Origin: Candidatus Eiseniibacteriota bacterium
GTDB lineage: Bacteria; Eisenbacteria; RBG-16-71-46
Length of the DNA: 64,000 nucleotides
Reading direction: 5' to 3'
NCBI GenBank assembly: GCA_016178725.1
Contig: JACOSV010000027.1
Location: forward strand, 1 to 64,000
A program made the translations under genes and the position numbers. Positions within the stretch are counted from its first letter, which is position 1. Each line of letters begins with the position of its first letter. The notes beneath the pieces are model-generated. The model worked only from the letters and a program-made list of their open reading frames with translations. It ran no database searches and had not been told where the DNA came from. Positions 33,076-61,099 of this stretch are shown in pieces.

Positions 33076-34845
33076 ATGTTCCCGGCTTCGTGCGCACGGA
33101 TGCGCCGCGCGGTCGCGACCGCGCCGGTCGCGGCCCTGATCGTCATCGCCGCGGGCTGCGCCACGGTCCCGCAGGGCCACGCTCCGGCGCCCACGCCGGC
33201 GCCGCAACCCCCGCCGCCGCCGGTCACCGCGATCCTGGGCTACGAGGCGATGGCGGATTCGCTCGCGAGCGTGGATGCGAGCGGGCTCGCGGGCAGACGC
33301 ATCGCGCTCGACCCCGGGCACGGCGGTTTCTTCCGCGGCGCGCTCGGCGTCCACGGGCTCACCGAGGCCGAGGTCAACCTCGGCGTCGCGCTCAAGCTGC
33401 GCGATCTGCTGGTCGCGCGCGGCGCGACCGTGTTCATGACGCGCGACCGCGACCGCGACTTCCTCACCCCCGCCGACAGCTCGCTCAAGGCCGACCTCAC
33501 CGAGCGCGCGCGGCTCGCGAACGCGTTCGCCCCCGACCTCTTCCTCTCGATCCATCACAACGCCGACGCCGGCGGCGCGCACGACGTGAACGAGACGCAG
33601 ACCTACTACAAGCTCGGCGACTCGGGCCCTTCGCTCGACGTCGCGCAGGACGTGCACCGCGGGCTGGTGCGCAACGTCGGCATCCGCCCGCACCGCGTCT
33701 CACCCGGCAACTACTTCGTGCTGCGCAACAGCGACGCGCCCGGGATCCTCACCGAATCGAGCTACATCACGAACCCCGGGGTCGAGGAGCGTCTGCGCCT
33801 GCCGGAGAAGCAGGAGATCGAGGCCGAGGCGCTGTGCGTCGGGCTCGCGCGCTACTTCGCGCGGCCGTTGCCCGCGATCGCGAGCTTCGCGGCGGTCCTC
33901 GCGCGCGATCCGGCGGCACGCGCCGAGACGACGTTCGTGGACGGCGATCCCGTGCTCGAAGCGCGCGTAACCGGCGCGTTCGACGAAGCGTCGATCGAGA
34001 TCGACGGCGCCGCCGCGGCGCCCGGGCGCACCGGCGACCGGCTCGCGTGGCGCCCGTCCGGATCGTGGGCGCCCGGGACGCACGTCGCGACGCTGCGCGT
34101 GCGGCTCGCCGGCGTGGGCGCCGCACGCGAGCGGCGGCTGCGCTTCCACGTGTCGGGAACGCCGGCGATGCTGCGCGCCGCGACGTGGCCGGAGGGCGCG
34201 GGGCGCGACGGCCGGCCCTTCGGCGTCAGGGTCGAGATCCAGGACGCGCTCGGCCGGCCGTGCCCGGATTCCGCGCGGGTCCGGCTGCGCGGCGTGCGCG
34301 CCGGCGGCCTCGCGCCGCGCGATACCGAGATCACCGCGGTCGACGGCGTGGGCTGGGCGTACTTCCGCGCCCGGCCGGTGGGCCGCGACACGCGCCCGCG
34401 CATCCGCGTGGTACTCGTGGCGCGCGCGGCGGCGCGCACGGGCACCGATGGCGATCCGGCCCGCGACGATCCGCCGGCCGTGCGGCCCGAGACGCTGACG
34501 ATCCAGCCGTCGCGGCCCGCCGCGCGACCGACGTCGGAAGGCGCGGCGCCGGCGCGACCGACGTCGGAAGGCGCGGCGCCGGCGCGACCGACGTCGGAAG
34601 GCGCGGCGCCGGCGCGACCGACGTCGGACGCCCGGGACGCGCGAGCCGGCGCGCACGGTCGCCTGGCTCACTCGCGACGGATTCGCGGCGATCCCGCGCG
34701 ACAGCGCGGGCGCGGTGCGTGCGCCGCGGCTCGCGGGCTACCGGCGCATCGCCTCCGACGGCGCGGCGCCGCAGTTCGCGGCGATCGCGGGCGGCGTGCT
34801 CGCGGCGCGGCGCGTCACGCTCGATCCCGAGGGCGGCGGCGATGA
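33076..34845 (+). CDS. N-acetylmuramoyl-L-alanine amidase lipoprotein; reading frame broken near 34.5-34.65 kb
   Basis: A lipoprotein signal (VAALIVIAAGCATV) and Pro-rich linker precede an Amidase_3 domain with all zinc/catalytic residues: LDPGHGG, TEAEVN, FLSIHHNAD and LTESSYITN. It would cleave the lactyl-alanine bond of peptidoglycan in the periplasm. A beta-rich region follows (about residues 300-475). The frame then runs through 3.6 copies of a 30-bp repeat and continues as an Arg-rich out-of-frame tail, while the natural continuation lies one base over (see 34715-35557). Authentic coding in this frame ends within 34500-34650. Confidence 0.85.
   Translation: MFPASCARMRRAVATAPVAALIVIAAGCATVPQGHAPAPTPAPQPPPPPVTAILGYEAMADSLASVDASGLAGRRIALDPGHGGFFRGALGVHGLTEAEVNLGVALKLRDLLVARGATVFMTRDRDRDFLTPADSSLKADLTERARLANAFAPDLFLSIHHNADAGGAHDVNETQTYYKLGDSGPSLDVAQDVHRGLVRNVGIRPHRVSPGNYFVLRNSDAPGILTESSYITNPGVEERLRLPEKQEIEAEALCVGLARYFARPLPAIASFAAVLARDPAARAETTFVDGDPVLEARVTGAFDEASIEIDGAAAAPGRTGDRLAWRPSGSWAPGTHVATLRVRLAGVGAARERRLRFHVSGTPAMLRAATWPEGAGRDGRPFGVRVEIQDALGRPCPDSARVRLRGVRAGGLAPRDTEITAVDGVGWAYFRARPVGRDTRPRIRVVLVARAAARTGTDGDPARDDPPAVRPETLTIQPSRPAARPTSEGAAPARPTSEGAAPARPTSEGAAPARPTSDARDARAGAHGRLAHSRRIRGDPARQRGRGACAAARGLPAHRLRRRGAAVRGDRGRRARGAARHARSRGRRR
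34522..34628. repeat. 30-bp repeat, 3.6 tandem units, inside the amidase gene
   Basis: The period is exactly 30 bases; each unit contains ggaaggcgcggcgccgg followed by cgcgaccgac. The plus-strand coding frame reads ARPTSEGAAP per unit. The same unit with three substitutions occurs at 60516-60565 inside thpR, there in the opposite orientation to coding. The unit has no stop in any of its six frames. The reading frame of the host gene differs before and after this array. Confidence 0.9.
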
Positions 34846-35557
34846 CGCGGCGGGGATCGGCCCGTCCGGAACGCGCGGCGCCAATCTCAACCTCGAGGTC
34901 GCGCGCATCCTCGCCGGGTTCCTCGCCGCCGCCGGCGCCGAGGTGCACCTCACACGCGACGGCGACTTCGCCGTGACCGAGGTCGAGCGCGTTCAGGGCA
35001 GCGAGACGTTCAACGCCGACCGCTACCTGCGCATCGGCCACCGCCTGCGCCGCTTCGGCTACTTCTATTCCAGCGCCGCGGGCCGGCAGTGGGCGCAGGG
35101 CGCCGCGTCCGCGTTCACGATGCTCAAGCTCCCGGCGCCGGCGTTCGGTGAGGAGGCGCTGTACGCGCTGCAGCAGACGTCGTGCCCCTCGATGTACGCG
35201 AGCTGGGCGCGCGTCGACTCGACGGCCGACGAGGGGACCCTGCTCGCCCCGGGCGCGCTGCGCGCCGAGGCCTACGCGCTGTTCGTCTCGCTCGTGCGCG
35301 AGTTCACGGAGCACCGCCGCGCCTGGCCGGTGGACTCCCTCGAGGTGCGCGACGCGGACGGGCGCCCGGTCGCGGGCGCGGTCGTGACCCTCGGCGACGC
35401 CCTCACGCTCGAGACCGACCGCGCGGGCCGGGCGCACTTCGCGCTGCTCGAGCCGGGCGCGATCGAAGCGGTGGTCGAGGACCGGCGCGTCCGAGCGCGG
35501 CGCGTTTTGCTAGACTCATCGCGAGGCGCCGTCCTGACCGGGTCGCGCGGAGACTGA
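34715..35557 (+). CDS. C-terminal part of the amidase gene: degenerate second Amidase_3-like domain
   Basis: In the +1 frame relative to the upstream part, sensible coding resumes at about 34640 (REPARTVAWLTRDGFAAIP) and continues to 35557. It resembles an amidase fold again: RRVTLDPEGGG, LNLEVARILAGFLAAAGAEV, HLTRDGD and YLRIGHRL. The catalytic GHGG and SIHHN motifs are changed, so it is probably non-catalytic, perhaps wall-binding. A carboxypeptidase-like beta domain ends the protein. No ribosome binding site supports independent translation from GTG 34715. It is most likely one gene with the upstream part, split by a frameshift, sequencing error or recoding. Confidence 0.65.
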   Translation: MRAPRLAGYRRIASDGAAPQFAAIAGGVLAARRVTLDPEGGGDDAAGIGPSGTRGANLNLEVARILAGFLAAAGAEVHLTRDGDFAVTEVERVQGSETFNADRYLRIGHRLRRFGYFYSSAAGRQWAQGAASAFTMLKLPAPAFGEEALYALQQTSCPSMYASWARVDSTADEGTLLAPGALRAEAYALFVSLVREFTEHRRAWPVDSLEVRDADGRPVAGAVVTLGDALTLETDRAGRAHFALLEPGAIEAVVEDRRVRARRVLLDSSRGAVLTGSRGD

Positions 35558-36855: not shown

Positions 36856-38168
36856 GGCTTGCCCGACGGCGGTTTGGAGGTCGCGGCCCGCGTCGCGCGT
36901 GCGGCGCCCGGCGCGCGATGGGTCGAGTCGGCCTCGAGGTTCATGAACGAGGGCGCCTCTTCGGTGCGCATGTGCTCGATCATCCAGTGCGCCGAGTCGG
37001 CGAGCTCGGACCTGGGATAGCGCTGAAGGAGATCCTTGAACGCCCGCTCGGCCTCGTCGTAGTCCTTGATCTCTTCCGAGTAGACGAAGCCGATCATGAA
37101 CTGCGCCTGCGGGCTCACGTCGCTGTTCGGGAACTCGTCGACGACGCGCTTGTAGGCGGCGATGCGCGGGCCGGCGCCGGTCGCCTCCTGCGCGCGGCGG
37201 AACAGCTCCTGCGCGGTCTCCTTCTTCGCCAGGAACGCCTTGATCGCCGCGGAGTCGGCGGAGAATCCGACGGCCGCCTTCTCGGCGGCGAGCTGCCTGC
37301 GATAGAAGTCCTGCGATCGCGTCTGCCCGAGCTGGCGCACGATCACCGAGCGCACCTGATCGAACGGACGCACGGATTCGGCGCGGACCGTGTCCACCTT
37401 GATCACGTGCCAGCCGCGCGCGCTCTTGTACGGTCCGCCGATCGCATGGCTGCCGAGCGCCATCGCCGACTCGGCGAGCGTCGGCTGCGCGCCGATCGAG
37501 CCGAACACGCCCTCGCGCGTCACGGTGCCGAGCGAGCCGCCCATCGCGCGCGTGAGCGAGTCGGCCGAGTAGCGGGCCGCGAGCTTGTTCCAGTCCTGGC
37601 CGCTCTTGGCCCACGTCTTGATGCGGCGCGCGTCGGCCTCGGTCTTCGACAGGATGTGGCGCAGCGTCACGCTGGCCGGCGAGCGGTAGTCGGCGGCATG
37701 CGCCTCGTACCACGCCTTGGCTTCGGAATCCGCGGGCACCGGGTTGGCGGCCATCACCTCGTTCACGTAGGTGCGGATCAGGAGGTCGCGCTCCGTCTGC
37801 TCGATCTGGCTCTTCACCTCGGGCCGGCTGGCGACGCCGTGCCGGCGCGCGGCCAGCAGCCACACGCGCTCCTCGACGAGCCGGTCGAGGAACTGGCCGC
37901 GGCCGTCGGGCGTGTTGTAGTTGGTGCGGTAGGGTTCGGGCAGCTCGTCGATGCGCTGCTGCACCTCGCGCGCGGTGATCGCGTCGCGGCCGACTCGCGC
38001 GAGCACGGTGTCGCGTCTCGCGGCGCCCCTCCTCGCGCCCGCGGCGGCCGGCGACTTCCCGGCGCCCGCGGCGACCGGCGACTTCGCCGCGCCGGCGGCG
38101 AGCGACCTCGCCGCCGGCGCGACGCAAAGCGCGAGCGCGAGCGCCGCCGTCGCGAGCCGCTGCGTCAT
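36852..38168 (-). CDS. SurA/PpiC-like periplasmic peptidyl-prolyl isomerase
   Basis: 438 residues: signal peptide, an Ala/Lys-rich linker with AAGAxKSP repeats, a SurA-N-like helical region (DAITAREVQQRIDELPEPYR), a parvulin domain (TLRHILSKTEADARRIKTWA, GGSLGTVTREGVF, GPYKSARGWHVIKVD) and a C-terminal TPR-like stretch (AYKRVVDEFPNSDVSPQAQF). It would help fold outer-membrane proteins. ATG 38168 overlaps the rplI stop (ATGA). Confidence 0.88.
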   Translation of the reverse strand: MTQRLATAALALALCVAPAARSLAAGAAKSPVAAGAGKSPAAAGARRGAARRDTVLARVGRDAITAREVQQRIDELPEPYRTNYNTPDGRGQFLDRLVEERVWLLAARRHGVASRPEVKSQIEQTERDLLIRTYVNEVMAANPVPADSEAKAWYEAHAADYRSPASVTLRHILSKTEADARRIKTWAKSGQDWNKLAARYSADSLTRAMGGSLGTVTREGVFGSIGAQPTLAESAMALGSHAIGGPYKSARGWHVIKVDTVRAESVRPFDQVRSVIVRQLGQTRSQDFYRRQLAAEKAAVGFSADSAAIKAFLAKKETAQELFRRAQEATGAGPRIAAYKRVVDEFPNSDVSPQAQFMIGFVYSEEIKDYDEAERAFKDLLQRYPRSELADSAHWMIEHMRTEEAPSFMNLEADSTHRAPGAARATRAATSKPPSGKP

Positions 38169-57974: not shown

Positions 57975-60461
57975 TCAACCTCCGGACTCGTGTGATGTTC
58001 CGGGATCCTCGACGTGGATGGCCGCGCGCGCCGCGATCAACTTCCGAAATCGATCATCCTTGCGCAGTTCGGCCAGCGATGGATCGCGCAGCAGGCGCTC
58101 GCGGCCGAGTCCGCGCCGCATCGCCTCGCCGATCCATCGTAGCGCGGTCCGGCGTTCGCCGAGAGTCTCATATGCAATTCCGGCCTGCGCGAGGATTGAT
58201 ACATCCTGTCCGCCGAGCGAGAGCGCTCGCGACACCGCCTCGCGCGCGCGCACCGGATCGCCGATTTCGGCGAACCAGCAACCCAGCCACACCCACTCCT
58301 CCGCGAAGTTGGGATTGATGCGCACGCGCTCGAGGCCGAGCGCGACCGCGCGCTCGAACGCTTCGCGCGCGCGCGGCGCGCCGCCCTGCGTCTGCTGGCA
58401 GGCGCTGCCGAGGTGCCCCCACATGCGCGAGTCGAGCGGCTTGAGCGCCACCGCGCGTTCGAACGCCTGCGCCGATTCGGCGTGGTGCCCGAGGTAGTAC
58501 TCGACCGTTCCCACGCCCGCCCATGCGATCGCATTCGGACGGATCGCGATCGAGCGGCGGTACGCCTCGAGCGCGTCCTCGAGCCGGTCGAGCGAGAAGT
58601 AGGCGGCGCCGAGGTGCGCGTGGCCCCGCGCGTTCTCGGGCGAGAGCTGCGTCACCGCGCGCCACGGCTCGACCGCGAGCGCGTAGCGCGCCTGCCGGAA
58701 GCAGACGACGCCGAGCCGGTCGTACCCGGCCCACGCGCTTGGGCGCAGCGCGATCGCCTGACGCGCCGCGGCCTCCGCGCCGTCGAAGCGCCCGAGCCGT
58801 TCGTGCGCGAGCGCGAGCCCGAGCCATGCGTCCGGCAGATCATGGCGCACCGCGATCGCGCGCCCGAACGTGGCGATCGCCTCCTCGTGCCGGCCGACCG
58901 AGTTGTGCACATCGCCGAGCGTCACCAGCACCTCCGGGGCATCGGGATCCAGCGCGAGCGCGCGCGCGCAGGCGTCGGCCGCCTTCATCTCCCACACCGC
59001 CTGAACAACGAGTCCGTACTTGTCGAGGTACGCGCGGGCGAGCGCCGCCGCCGCCAGCGCCGAATCGCCCTCGTCGGCCGTGAGCGTCTCGAGCAGCCGG
59101 ATCGCGCCGTCCACCGACGCCTCGTCGTCGAAGCGCTGCAGGTACCCGAGCGCCTGGAGGTAGCGCTCGTGCGACGCGGGATCGCGCGTCGCACGCCGCC
59201 GCGGCGCCCCGGCCGGCCGGGCGTCGAGCACGGCGAGCAGCTTCTCGGTGAGCCGGTCCTCGAGCGCGAAGAGCTCCGCCGCCATGCCGTCGAGCGTGTC
59301 GCCGCCGATCGTGACGCGCGTCGCGAGATCGGTGACGCCGTACGTGATGCGCACGTGCGGGCCGATGCGCCGCAGCGTGCCCTCGACGACGAAACGTGCG
59401 CCGAGCGTCTCGGCCCGCCGCGCCCACGTCTCGCCCGGCTCGGCGTCCGGCTCGGGCGCCACCACGGCGATCTCGGGAACGGCGGCGAGGCTCGCCGTTA
59501 CCGCTTCGGTCAGGCCGCGCGCGAGCGCGTCCGACCCGCCGCCCTCACCCGAGAGATCGCGAAACGGCGCGACCGCGACCGTACGGCGGCCGGGCGTGAA
59601 CAGCTCGAGCGGCGACGCGGGCCGCGCGGCGTCACCGCCGCCCGCCGCGCGCAGATCGGCGATGAACGCGTCGGCCTCCTGATAGCGGTCGGCCGGTCGT
59701 TTGGCGAGCGCTTTGAGCACGGCGCGGTCGATCCACTCCGGCAGATCGGCACGCCGCTCGCTCGGCCGCGCGGGCGCTTCGTTGGCCGCCGCGTAGATCA
59801 GCGCCTCGGCGTGGCGCGACCGGAACGGCAGCGCGCCGGTGAGGAGCTCGTAGAACACGACGCCGAGGCCGTAGAGATCGCTGCGCGGATCGGCCTCATC
59901 GCCGGCCGCGACCTCGGGCGAGACGAACGCCGGCGTCATCAGCACGCGATCCGCCGCCGTGAACCGCGAGCGCCCCTCGATCAGCGCGAAGCCGAAGTCG
60001 ATCACGAATACGCGACCGTCGCGATCGATCATGATGTTGCCGCCCGACACGTCGCGGTGGACCACGCCGCGGCTGTGCGCGTGGCCGAGCGCTTCGGCTG
60101 CGGCGACGGCGATCCGCACCGCCTCGGCGACGGGAAGACGCGCGCGCGCGGCGAGAGCGGACGCCGTCTCGCCGTCCACGAGCTGCTGCGCGACGTAGAC
60201 CTGCCCCTGCCATTCGCCGGACCCGAACGTCGTCGGGATGCCGGGGTGATCGAGCAGCCGCGTCGCCTCGATTTCGCGCAGCAGACGGCGGCGCGCTTCG
60301 GCGGAGCCGAGCAGGCGCTCGGCCAGCAGCTTGAGCACGGCCGGTCGGCGGATGATCGTGTCCTCGGCGCGCCACACCACCGCCTGCCCGCCGCCGTCGA
60401 GCGGCTCGACGACGCGGAAGCGGCCGACGAGATCGCCGGGCGCGGGGGTGCGCGGGCTCAT
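57975..60461 (-). CDS. Ser/Thr protein kinase with FlgO/TolB-like and TPR domains
   Basis: 828 residues. The kinase domain (about 14-270) has Gly loop LDGGGQAVVW, Lys44, HRDVSGGN (Asp137, Asn142) and DFG (155-157). The loop has Ser where HRDxKPxN kinases carry Lys. No membrane span follows; instead a FlgO/TolB-N-like domain (VAVAPFRDLSGEGG, FVVEGTLRRIGPHVRITYGV) and about ten TPR units (AIATFGRAIAVRHDLPDAWL, HAHLGAAYFSLDRLEDALEA). This layout is common in Acidobacteria-like phyla. Its stop and start overlap those of its neighbours. The substrate is unknown; reduced kinase activity is possible. Confidence 0.9.
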   Translation of the reverse strand: MSPRTPAPGDLVGRFRVVEPLDGGGQAVVWRAEDTIIRRPAVLKLLAERLLGSAEARRRLLREIEATRLLDHPGIPTTFGSGEWQGQVYVAQQLVDGETASALAARARLPVAEAVRIAVAAAEALGHAHSRGVVHRDVSGGNIMIDRDGRVFVIDFGFALIEGRSRFTAADRVLMTPAFVSPEVAAGDEADPRSDLYGLGVVFYELLTGALPFRSRHAEALIYAAANEAPARPSERRADLPEWIDRAVLKALAKRPADRYQEADAFIADLRAAGGGDAARPASPLELFTPGRRTVAVAPFRDLSGEGGGSDALARGLTEAVTASLAAVPEIAVVAPEPDAEPGETWARRAETLGARFVVEGTLRRIGPHVRITYGVTDLATRVTIGGDTLDGMAAELFALEDRLTEKLLAVLDARPAGAPRRRATRDPASHERYLQALGYLQRFDDEASVDGAIRLLETLTADEGDSALAAAALARAYLDKYGLVVQAVWEMKAADACARALALDPDAPEVLVTLGDVHNSVGRHEEAIATFGRAIAVRHDLPDAWLGLALAHERLGRFDGAEAAARQAIALRPSAWAGYDRLGVVCFRQARYALAVEPWRAVTQLSPENARGHAHLGAAYFSLDRLEDALEAYRRSIAIRPNAIAWAGVGTVEYYLGHHAESAQAFERAVALKPLDSRMWGHLGSACQQTQGGAPRAREAFERAVALGLERVRINPNFAEEWVWLGCWFAEIGDPVRAREAVSRALSLGGQDVSILAQAGIAYETLGERRTALRWIGEAMRRGLGRERLLRDPSLAELRKDDRFRKLIAARAAIHVEDPGTSHESGG

Positions 60462-61099
60462 GACGCGAGCACCGCCTCGGCGCGCACCGCATACTTGGAT
60501 CCCGCCGCGCGTACAGAATTGGAAGGCGCGGCGCCGGCGCGACCAACATTGGAAGGCGCGGCGCCGGACGCGAGCGTGCTCTCGATCACGCGCACGCGGT
60601 CGACGCGGAAGCGCGGCGCCGGATCGGGCCCGACGTCCTGGAGGCGCCCGCTCCAGTCCTGATCGCGCGCACGCACGCGCGCGATCGTGAGGTGCGGCGC
60701 GAACGGGCGGGCGGCGGGCGCGAACCCCTGCGCCACGAGCGCGCGCTCAACGCCCGCGGCGAGCGCGACCAGCGCCTCGCCCCCCTCGGCGAGCCCGAGC
60801 CACAGGACGCGCGCGCGCTGCGCGGCGGGGAACGCGTCCGCCGCGCCGAGCAAGGCGTCGAACGGCGCGACGCCGGTGACCCCCTCGCGCGCCGCGGTGA
60901 TCACGCGCGCGAGTGCGCCGCGTTCATAAACCGCGTCGCGGCGCCGCTCATCCAGATCGCCCATGAACCGCAGCGTGTAGTGCAGGTTCTCGCGCCGCAC
61001 CCAGGCGAGACCGTCGCCCTGGCGCCGCACGCGCGCGATCGCATCCGCCACCGCCGCCTGCACCGGCGCGGGCGGGAACACGGCGAGGAAGATGCGCAC
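60458..61099 (-). CDS. thpR: RNA 2',3'-cyclic phosphodiesterase (2H family) with repeat insertion
   Basis: 213 residues with both HxTx motifs of the 2H phosphoesterases: ENLHYTLRFMGD and FAPHLTIARV. ThpR opens 2',3'-cyclic RNA ends. The usual C-terminus (STL-xx-GSxYxVxAEAPL) is split here by about 22 residues, GAAPSNVGRAGAAPSNSV, encoded by a 30-bp repeat (60516-60565). The frame is kept. It is placed between cinA and recA as in many genomes, with the kinase block inserted. Confidence 0.9.
   Translation of the reverse strand: MRIFLAVFPPAPVQAAVADAIARVRRQGDGLAWVRRENLHYTLRFMGDLDERRRDAVYERGALARVITAAREGVTGVAPFDALLGAADAFPAAQRARVLWLGLAEGGEALVALAAGVERALVAQGFAPAARPFAPHLTIARVRARDQDWSGRLQDVGPDPAPRFRVDRVRVIESTLASGAAPSNVGRAGAAPSNSVRAAGSKYAVRAEAVLAS
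60516..60565. repeat. 30-bp repeat, 1.7 units, inside thpR
   Basis: attggaaggcgcggcgccgg occurs twice with 30-base spacing, joined by cgcgaccaac. It differs from the 34.5 kb array by three substitutions per unit. Relative to the coding strand it is inverted compared with the copy in the amidase gene. Confidence 0.9.

Follow-up and report, generated by a model that had tools for sequence, protein, structure and literature searches.

Closest described systems

Palindromic repeats within protein-coding sequence have been described mainly in Rickettsia and Wolbachia, and we know of no solved mechanism for their spread. Rickettsia palindromic elements (RPEs) are short, lineage-specific palindromes which lie in frame in many conserved genes as well as between genes and are translated through (PMC2229807, PMC3733652). 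REP sequences also have copies within genes, uvrA and other repair genes included (PMC3733652). MITEs such as the Coxiella QMITEs, NEMIS and ERIC are small non-autonomous inverted-repeat elements able to fuse in frame to genes (PMC5896051, PMC2229807).

The repeats studied here are represented by two arrays in the window (the whole 64-kb stretch of DNA analysed). They are likely to represent a palindromic insertion element of REP/RPE type, non-autonomous and confined to one lineage, a confidence which covers the element and its insertion; the assignment of a transposase is much weaker. What sequence comparison itself shows is the family, its one-sided tetranucleotide and conserved stem, its restriction to the lineage and a net gain of 27 bp at empty alleles.

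The family resembles RPEs, including R. conorii RPE-4/RPE-6 (CGTC REPs), by their description, in that palindromic repeats stand in frame in unrelated conserved genes and are absent from the orthologues. In contrast to RPEs, it has no CGTC tag, usually adds a clean net 27 bp, folds into a single stem with a 12-nt centre, is very GC-rich and CGGC-flanked, and grows into head-to-tail arrays. REP/REPIN and RAYT features were compared from PMC3733652 and PMC8266576. The likeness consists of a multicopy hairpin of 20-40 bp after a conserved tetranucleotide (here 27-30 bp, at ~53 loci), copies in uvrA and an IS200-like HUH enzyme in the genome. However, the tetranucleotide is CGGC rather than GTAG, at two empty sites it is already part of the native sequence, GTAG or CGTC never occurs as the flank, no RAYT scores above its cut-off and no element copies lie beside the Y1 gene. 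The inverted-pair layout of REPINs was not seen among the family loci. Non-autonomous IS200/IS605 derivatives share the hairpin and, to judge from few exact empty sites, may share the lack of target duplication and the one-sided conserved tetranucleotide, but the element is far shorter than an IS200/IS605 end pair, and no autonomous parent copy of it was found. Inverted arms like those of MITEs are present; unlike MITEs, the element shows no duplication where orthologues supply an empty allele, and it has at most a quarter of their length. The family works like REPs and RPEs while lacking their tag and a RAYT, and differs from them in length, target and tandem growth.

In a distant, GC-rich lineage, the element is shorter, its empty alleles are clear, its target tetranucleotide lies on one side only and its hosts include uvrA, mfd, nuoL, kdsA and further core genes, all of which makes the target rule, the unit and the candidate enzyme directly testable. 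The family is also a natural set of nine-residue insertions that core proteins tolerate in frame.

Two arrays in the window

The first array lies antisense in an amidase gene and comprises three full 30-bp units (34518-34607, minus strand, orientation O), followed within 34608-34628 (minus strand) by CGGC (34608-34611) and a fourth, 5′-truncated unit, at the edge of which the amidase frame is lost. In the frame of the repeat finding, the identical units are 34522-34551, 34552-34581 and 34582-34611, with a partial copy to 34628 (TRF score 215). The second array consists of two 30-bp units (60503-60562, minus strand; 60 bp inserted) lying sense in the 3′ part of thpR, and the CGGC tetranucleotide 5′ of the block (60563-60566, minus strand) is the family's conserved flank. 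Its repeat span, 60507-60566, had been reported as 1.7 copies; it in fact holds two units, the first of which is more diverged and has 7 mismatches. Both arrays stand on one strand of the window and their host genes on opposite strands, which bears out the original prediction's statement that the repeat is inverted with respect to coding. Its further statements that the 30-mer is stop-free in six of six frames and that the DNA rather than a peptide is conserved also hold, and copies occur in several frames and either orientation. One frame of the 27-mer, the commoner form, contains a TGA.

The 16-bp core has five exact occurrences in the 3.07-Mb genome of origin, all within the amidase and thpR arrays, and is absent from the relatives in an exact search. 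The refuting outcome named with the prediction, that only these two copies exist genome-wide, holds for the exact 30-mer, confined to these two loci, but not for the family with its ~53 loci. At both loci the centre is 3 bases longer than usual, hence 30 bp; the 30-bp unit, which had been taken as the repeat itself, is a lengthened form special to them, and the usual unit is 27 bp. Exact scans of the genome_contigs and viral_contigs sets, from which the genome of origin is possibly missing, gave zero matches to the 30-mer and the 27-mer consensus, and Rfam reported only a tRNA in the window. A separate 27-bp tandem array (TCCCCGCGCCCGCGGCGACCGGCGACT, 2.7 copies) at 38030-38114 of the window does not match the hairpin family.

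The first part of the amidase gene (Amidase_3, PF01520; 32950-34845, plus strand) is in frame with the array and out of frame after it. The continuation, at 34637-35557 on the plus strand, has the conserved PGTREP..WLTRDGF and a second Amidase_3-like domain, i.e., domain 1 and the array occupy one frame, and PGTREPARTVAWLTRDGF and the second domain another. In the relatives the amidase is a single ORF of ~800 aa with two Amidase_3-like domains, and ~20 residues which they conserve are absent here at the array edge, beside the truncated unit. This edge reflects either a broken gene or an assembly error. The amidase array is the only intragenic copy seen with the frame lost, and for that reason it is a poor example of the frame-keeping rule and thpR a good one. 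The claim that the repeat sits in genes without truncating them is accordingly correct as regards the unit length and thpR, and fails for the amidase.

The frame of thpR (RNA 2′,3′-cyclic phosphodiesterase, TIGR02258; 60458-61099, minus strand) is intact through the insertion. With the units deleted in silico it reads ...STLASGGSKYAV..., the spacing of which equals that of ...ESRLSPLGSIYTV... in the relatives; the residues ESTLASGGSKY left after removal have the spacing of ESRLSPLGSIY in relative G011. The extra 60 bp are accounted for by the element block in an alignment that comprises G011, G008, G005 and G002, the ORFs of several other relatives being wrong. The downstream Ser/Thr kinase and TPR gene (57975-60461, minus strand) starts ~40 bp past the thpR array, which thus also lies within the upstream region of this gene (window 60461-60503).

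A hairpin family restricted to one lineage

Further arrays, with units that are related but different, first emerged when the genome of origin was searched with a sequence model and at the DNA level. In orientation O they share CGGC-GCCGCG-centre-CGCGGCG. A covariance model built from 9 terminal units gave 46 matches in this genome at E ≤ 0.5, compared with 0-4 in each of 28 relatives; with a model trained on 32 copies, this genome yielded 64 units at E ≤ 0.05, compared with 0-1 in each of 58 relatives, of which the same-genus genome had none. Training copies match such models by construction, but more than 20 of the loci lie outside the training set and are new. The three matches in relatives look unrelated on inspection. 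The hairpin family appears, on these searches, to be private to this lineage and effectively absent from the 58 relatives.

After inspection, ~53 loci remained, mostly single copies, a count reached from 57 parsed rows by dropping C16:16695, C34 and C69 as doubtful and by counting once an array that is divided between the ends of contigs C50 and C11. False positives at C25:53730, C33:24063, C39:27115, C49:35891 (gltX) and C69:7242 were removed. Four identical 27-mers occur at unrelated loci. The contig ends C50:132243-132338 and C11:5442-5502 both stop inside one 27-bp array with the unit GCCGCGATCCAGACCGATCACGC..; the two contigs are probably neighbours, and the shared array, near a subtilase N-terminus, is longer than reads could span. 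At C16:16695 (L178) and C34:25583 (L165), GGCGCCGCGCCTTGCG.. is followed by a −10-like box at promoter spacing, just before genes; these sites resemble the element and may be a promoter motif instead, and both were excluded from the counts. That the arrays might be promoters (TTG..-35 plus −10 at C83, C16 and C34) suits only a few intergenic loci, and this reading was dropped.

The family consensus is GCCGCGMTCCAAGTCGRTCACGCGGCG, and 46 of the 57 terminal units are exactly 27 bp long. The layout GCCGCG-centre-CGCGGCG forms a GC-rich hairpin with a single stem and a 12-nt centre; the arms make up a 7-bp stem which is 97% paired. The innermost stem pair is GC in 42 units, CG in 4 and TA in 1, and another is CG in 46 and TA in 1, all paired. 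The covariation score of the stem was reached by 0 of 500 shuffles. Since the four CG copies may share descent, these replacements would correspond to about three independent compensations, and the stem is maintained by compensatory changes.

Compensation of this kind could also reflect an RNA function, and it is conceivable that the hairpin is kept because it serves in regulation or in the chromosome (through RNA stability, termination or protein binding), with mobility secondary. About half of the copies lie near gene ends or starts, as is known for REPs (PMC3733652). Nevertheless, close relatives possess the same genes without the element, and many copies lie within coding sequence in both orientations, which makes this explanation improbable compared with that of an insertion element.

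The insertion element reading is further consistent with the flanks. The preceding tetranucleotide is CGGC in 41, CGGT in 6 and CGGG in 3 of the 57 rows (50/57 together), and the four upstream bases are C in 53, G in 55, G in 55 and C in 48 of 57, figures inflated by the inclusion of CGGC in the search models. The downstream flank of the 57 rows has no comparable conservation. A locus-specific spacer acting as target duplication was considered and dropped once single copies showed a common centre.

Occupied and empty alleles

The comparison of occupied and empty alleles, proposed with the original prediction, yielded empty alleles in five genes plus ThpR; the in-frame hosts number more than 20. 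The thiolase, the FprA-like reductase, NuoL and an ABC-ATPase are each longer by nine residues (27 bp) than orthologues in relatives G001, G002, G003 or G020, and UvrA, with two units, is longer by 18 residues (54 bp). In the G001 orthologue of fpr, GAGCCG|ACCGGCGAG indicates a unique 27-bp insertion beside a native CGGT (O strand), and the G002 orthologue of uvrA has CTCGGC|GG at the insertion site. The target flank CGGC/CGGT is thus native at both sites. In the other inspected hosts with an in-frame copy, in silico deletion of the block left proteins of native appearance, e.g., KdsA MKRFAIGAAEVGGPRLLVIAGPCVIES. No target duplication was seen at the inspected sites and orthologous empty alleles, few of which are exact empty sites; the empty alleles are orthologues ~60-80% identical in protein, and the exact boundaries come from few sites.

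These alleles bear on the proposal that each array arose locally by minisatellite slippage of native coding sequence, with a chance likeness between the two genes. The arrays are indeed head-to-tail and homogeneous, and the relatives' amidase has EGxP-like residues near the array. But the 27-mer family stands at ~53 unrelated loci, mostly as single copies, and the orthologues show clean gains with no native sequence expanded. This account is very improbable and is refuted for the family, yet slippage is the likely cause of array growth. A period of 26 fits slippage on CGGCG, and a re-insertion-type junction was found at C39 only. Array-internal units end in CGGC, not GGCG, and neither simple re-insertion nor slippage predicts such ends.

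Insertion and mobilisation

The element would insert cleanly 3′ of CGGC or CGGT, in either orientation, in and between genes, without obvious target duplication. A conserved hairpin, a tetranucleotide on one side only and the lack of a duplication are the traces left by single-strand Y1 systems (IS200/IS605, RAYT). We tentatively suggest, at rather less than even confidence, that movement proceeds via single-stranded DNA and that a Y1 HUH (IS200/IS605-like) transposase, perhaps the product of the genome's single-copy IS200-type gene, acts on the hairpin in trans. This one Y1 gene (L186, G000:C19:31214-31552) is located just downstream of a lexA-like gene and scores as IS200 type (75.2 bits, cut-off 55) rather than RAYT (29.8, cut-off 80). 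No RAYT gene with flanking REPs was found in the genome. The 3.3-kb Y1 locus contains no convincing element copy and no visible insertion-sequence ends.

Nearly every family genome searched carries the Y1 gene while lacking the element; this conservation rules the gene out as a lineage-specific partner. Because of this conservation, and because no convincing copy flanks the gene, the Y1 gene is a candidate only, probably domesticated. A more speculative and, taken whole, unlikely picture is that of a new class of ultra-short mobile DNA: a nine-codon, 27-bp hairpin would insert without scar 3′ of CGGC, its length and stop-poor frames permitting life in essential genes, and an IS200-type TnpA (not a RAYT) that is inherited vertically and domesticated would move it in trans.

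Host genes and reading frame

About half of the ~53 loci are intragenic and about half lie outside genes. Pfam and NCBIfam confirmed as hosts UvrA, Mfd, NuoL, thiolase, KdsA (DAHP synthetase family), TsaD, RpiB, lumazine synthase, FTR1, an ABC exporter, GH57, a GatA-like amidase, a subtilase, an epimerase, a HAD hydrolase, ThpR and an aspartyl protease, the last with two copies in opposite orientation. Among 27 coding loci, 14 copies are sense and 13 antisense. Extragenic copies often adjoin gene ends or starts, and at C43 the stop codon comes from the element.

Coding units are all 27 or 30 bp, multiples of three without in-frame stops, and units of 25/26, 28 and 29 bp occur outside genes only (Fisher p ~0.006, with coding status assigned by hand, partly from the open frame). 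Insertions into loops and termini would be tolerated because 27 bp equal nine codons and five of six consensus frames are stop-free. Frame-breaking length changes would survive only between genes, and some copies would then expand in tandem, by 27 or 30 bp in genes and 26-29 bp outside. The preference for insertion between codons tracks the phase of CGGC in coding sequence; a codon-phase bias as proof of coding adaptation was therefore rejected, being explained by CGGC phase in a GC-rich genome (p ~0.19). As off-length units exist outside genes and CGGC explains the phase bias, purifying selection acting on a 27-bp element explains frame-keeping at least in part. The predicted small interspersed element is thus largely right, while its adaptation to coding sequence is only partly shown, about half of the loci being extragenic.

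Short hairpin inserts in conserved genes also recall the mobile bypassing elements of yeast mitochondria, which ribosomes skip. Coding units that are invariably multiples of three and stop-free in frame, with other lengths confined to intergenic positions, indicate that frame matters and that the inserts are most simply translated, and bypassing is highly improbable. An artefact of the metagenome-assembled genome, which the contig ends within one array and the broken amidase frame might suggest, is scarcely credible given that the ~53 copies are diverged and stand in distinct, single-copy surroundings, where the flanking frames are intact and orthologues support the junctions.

The GH57 gene (G000:C20:42401-44462, L168) carries one internal copy and another that forms its C-terminus, right before the start of the next gene.
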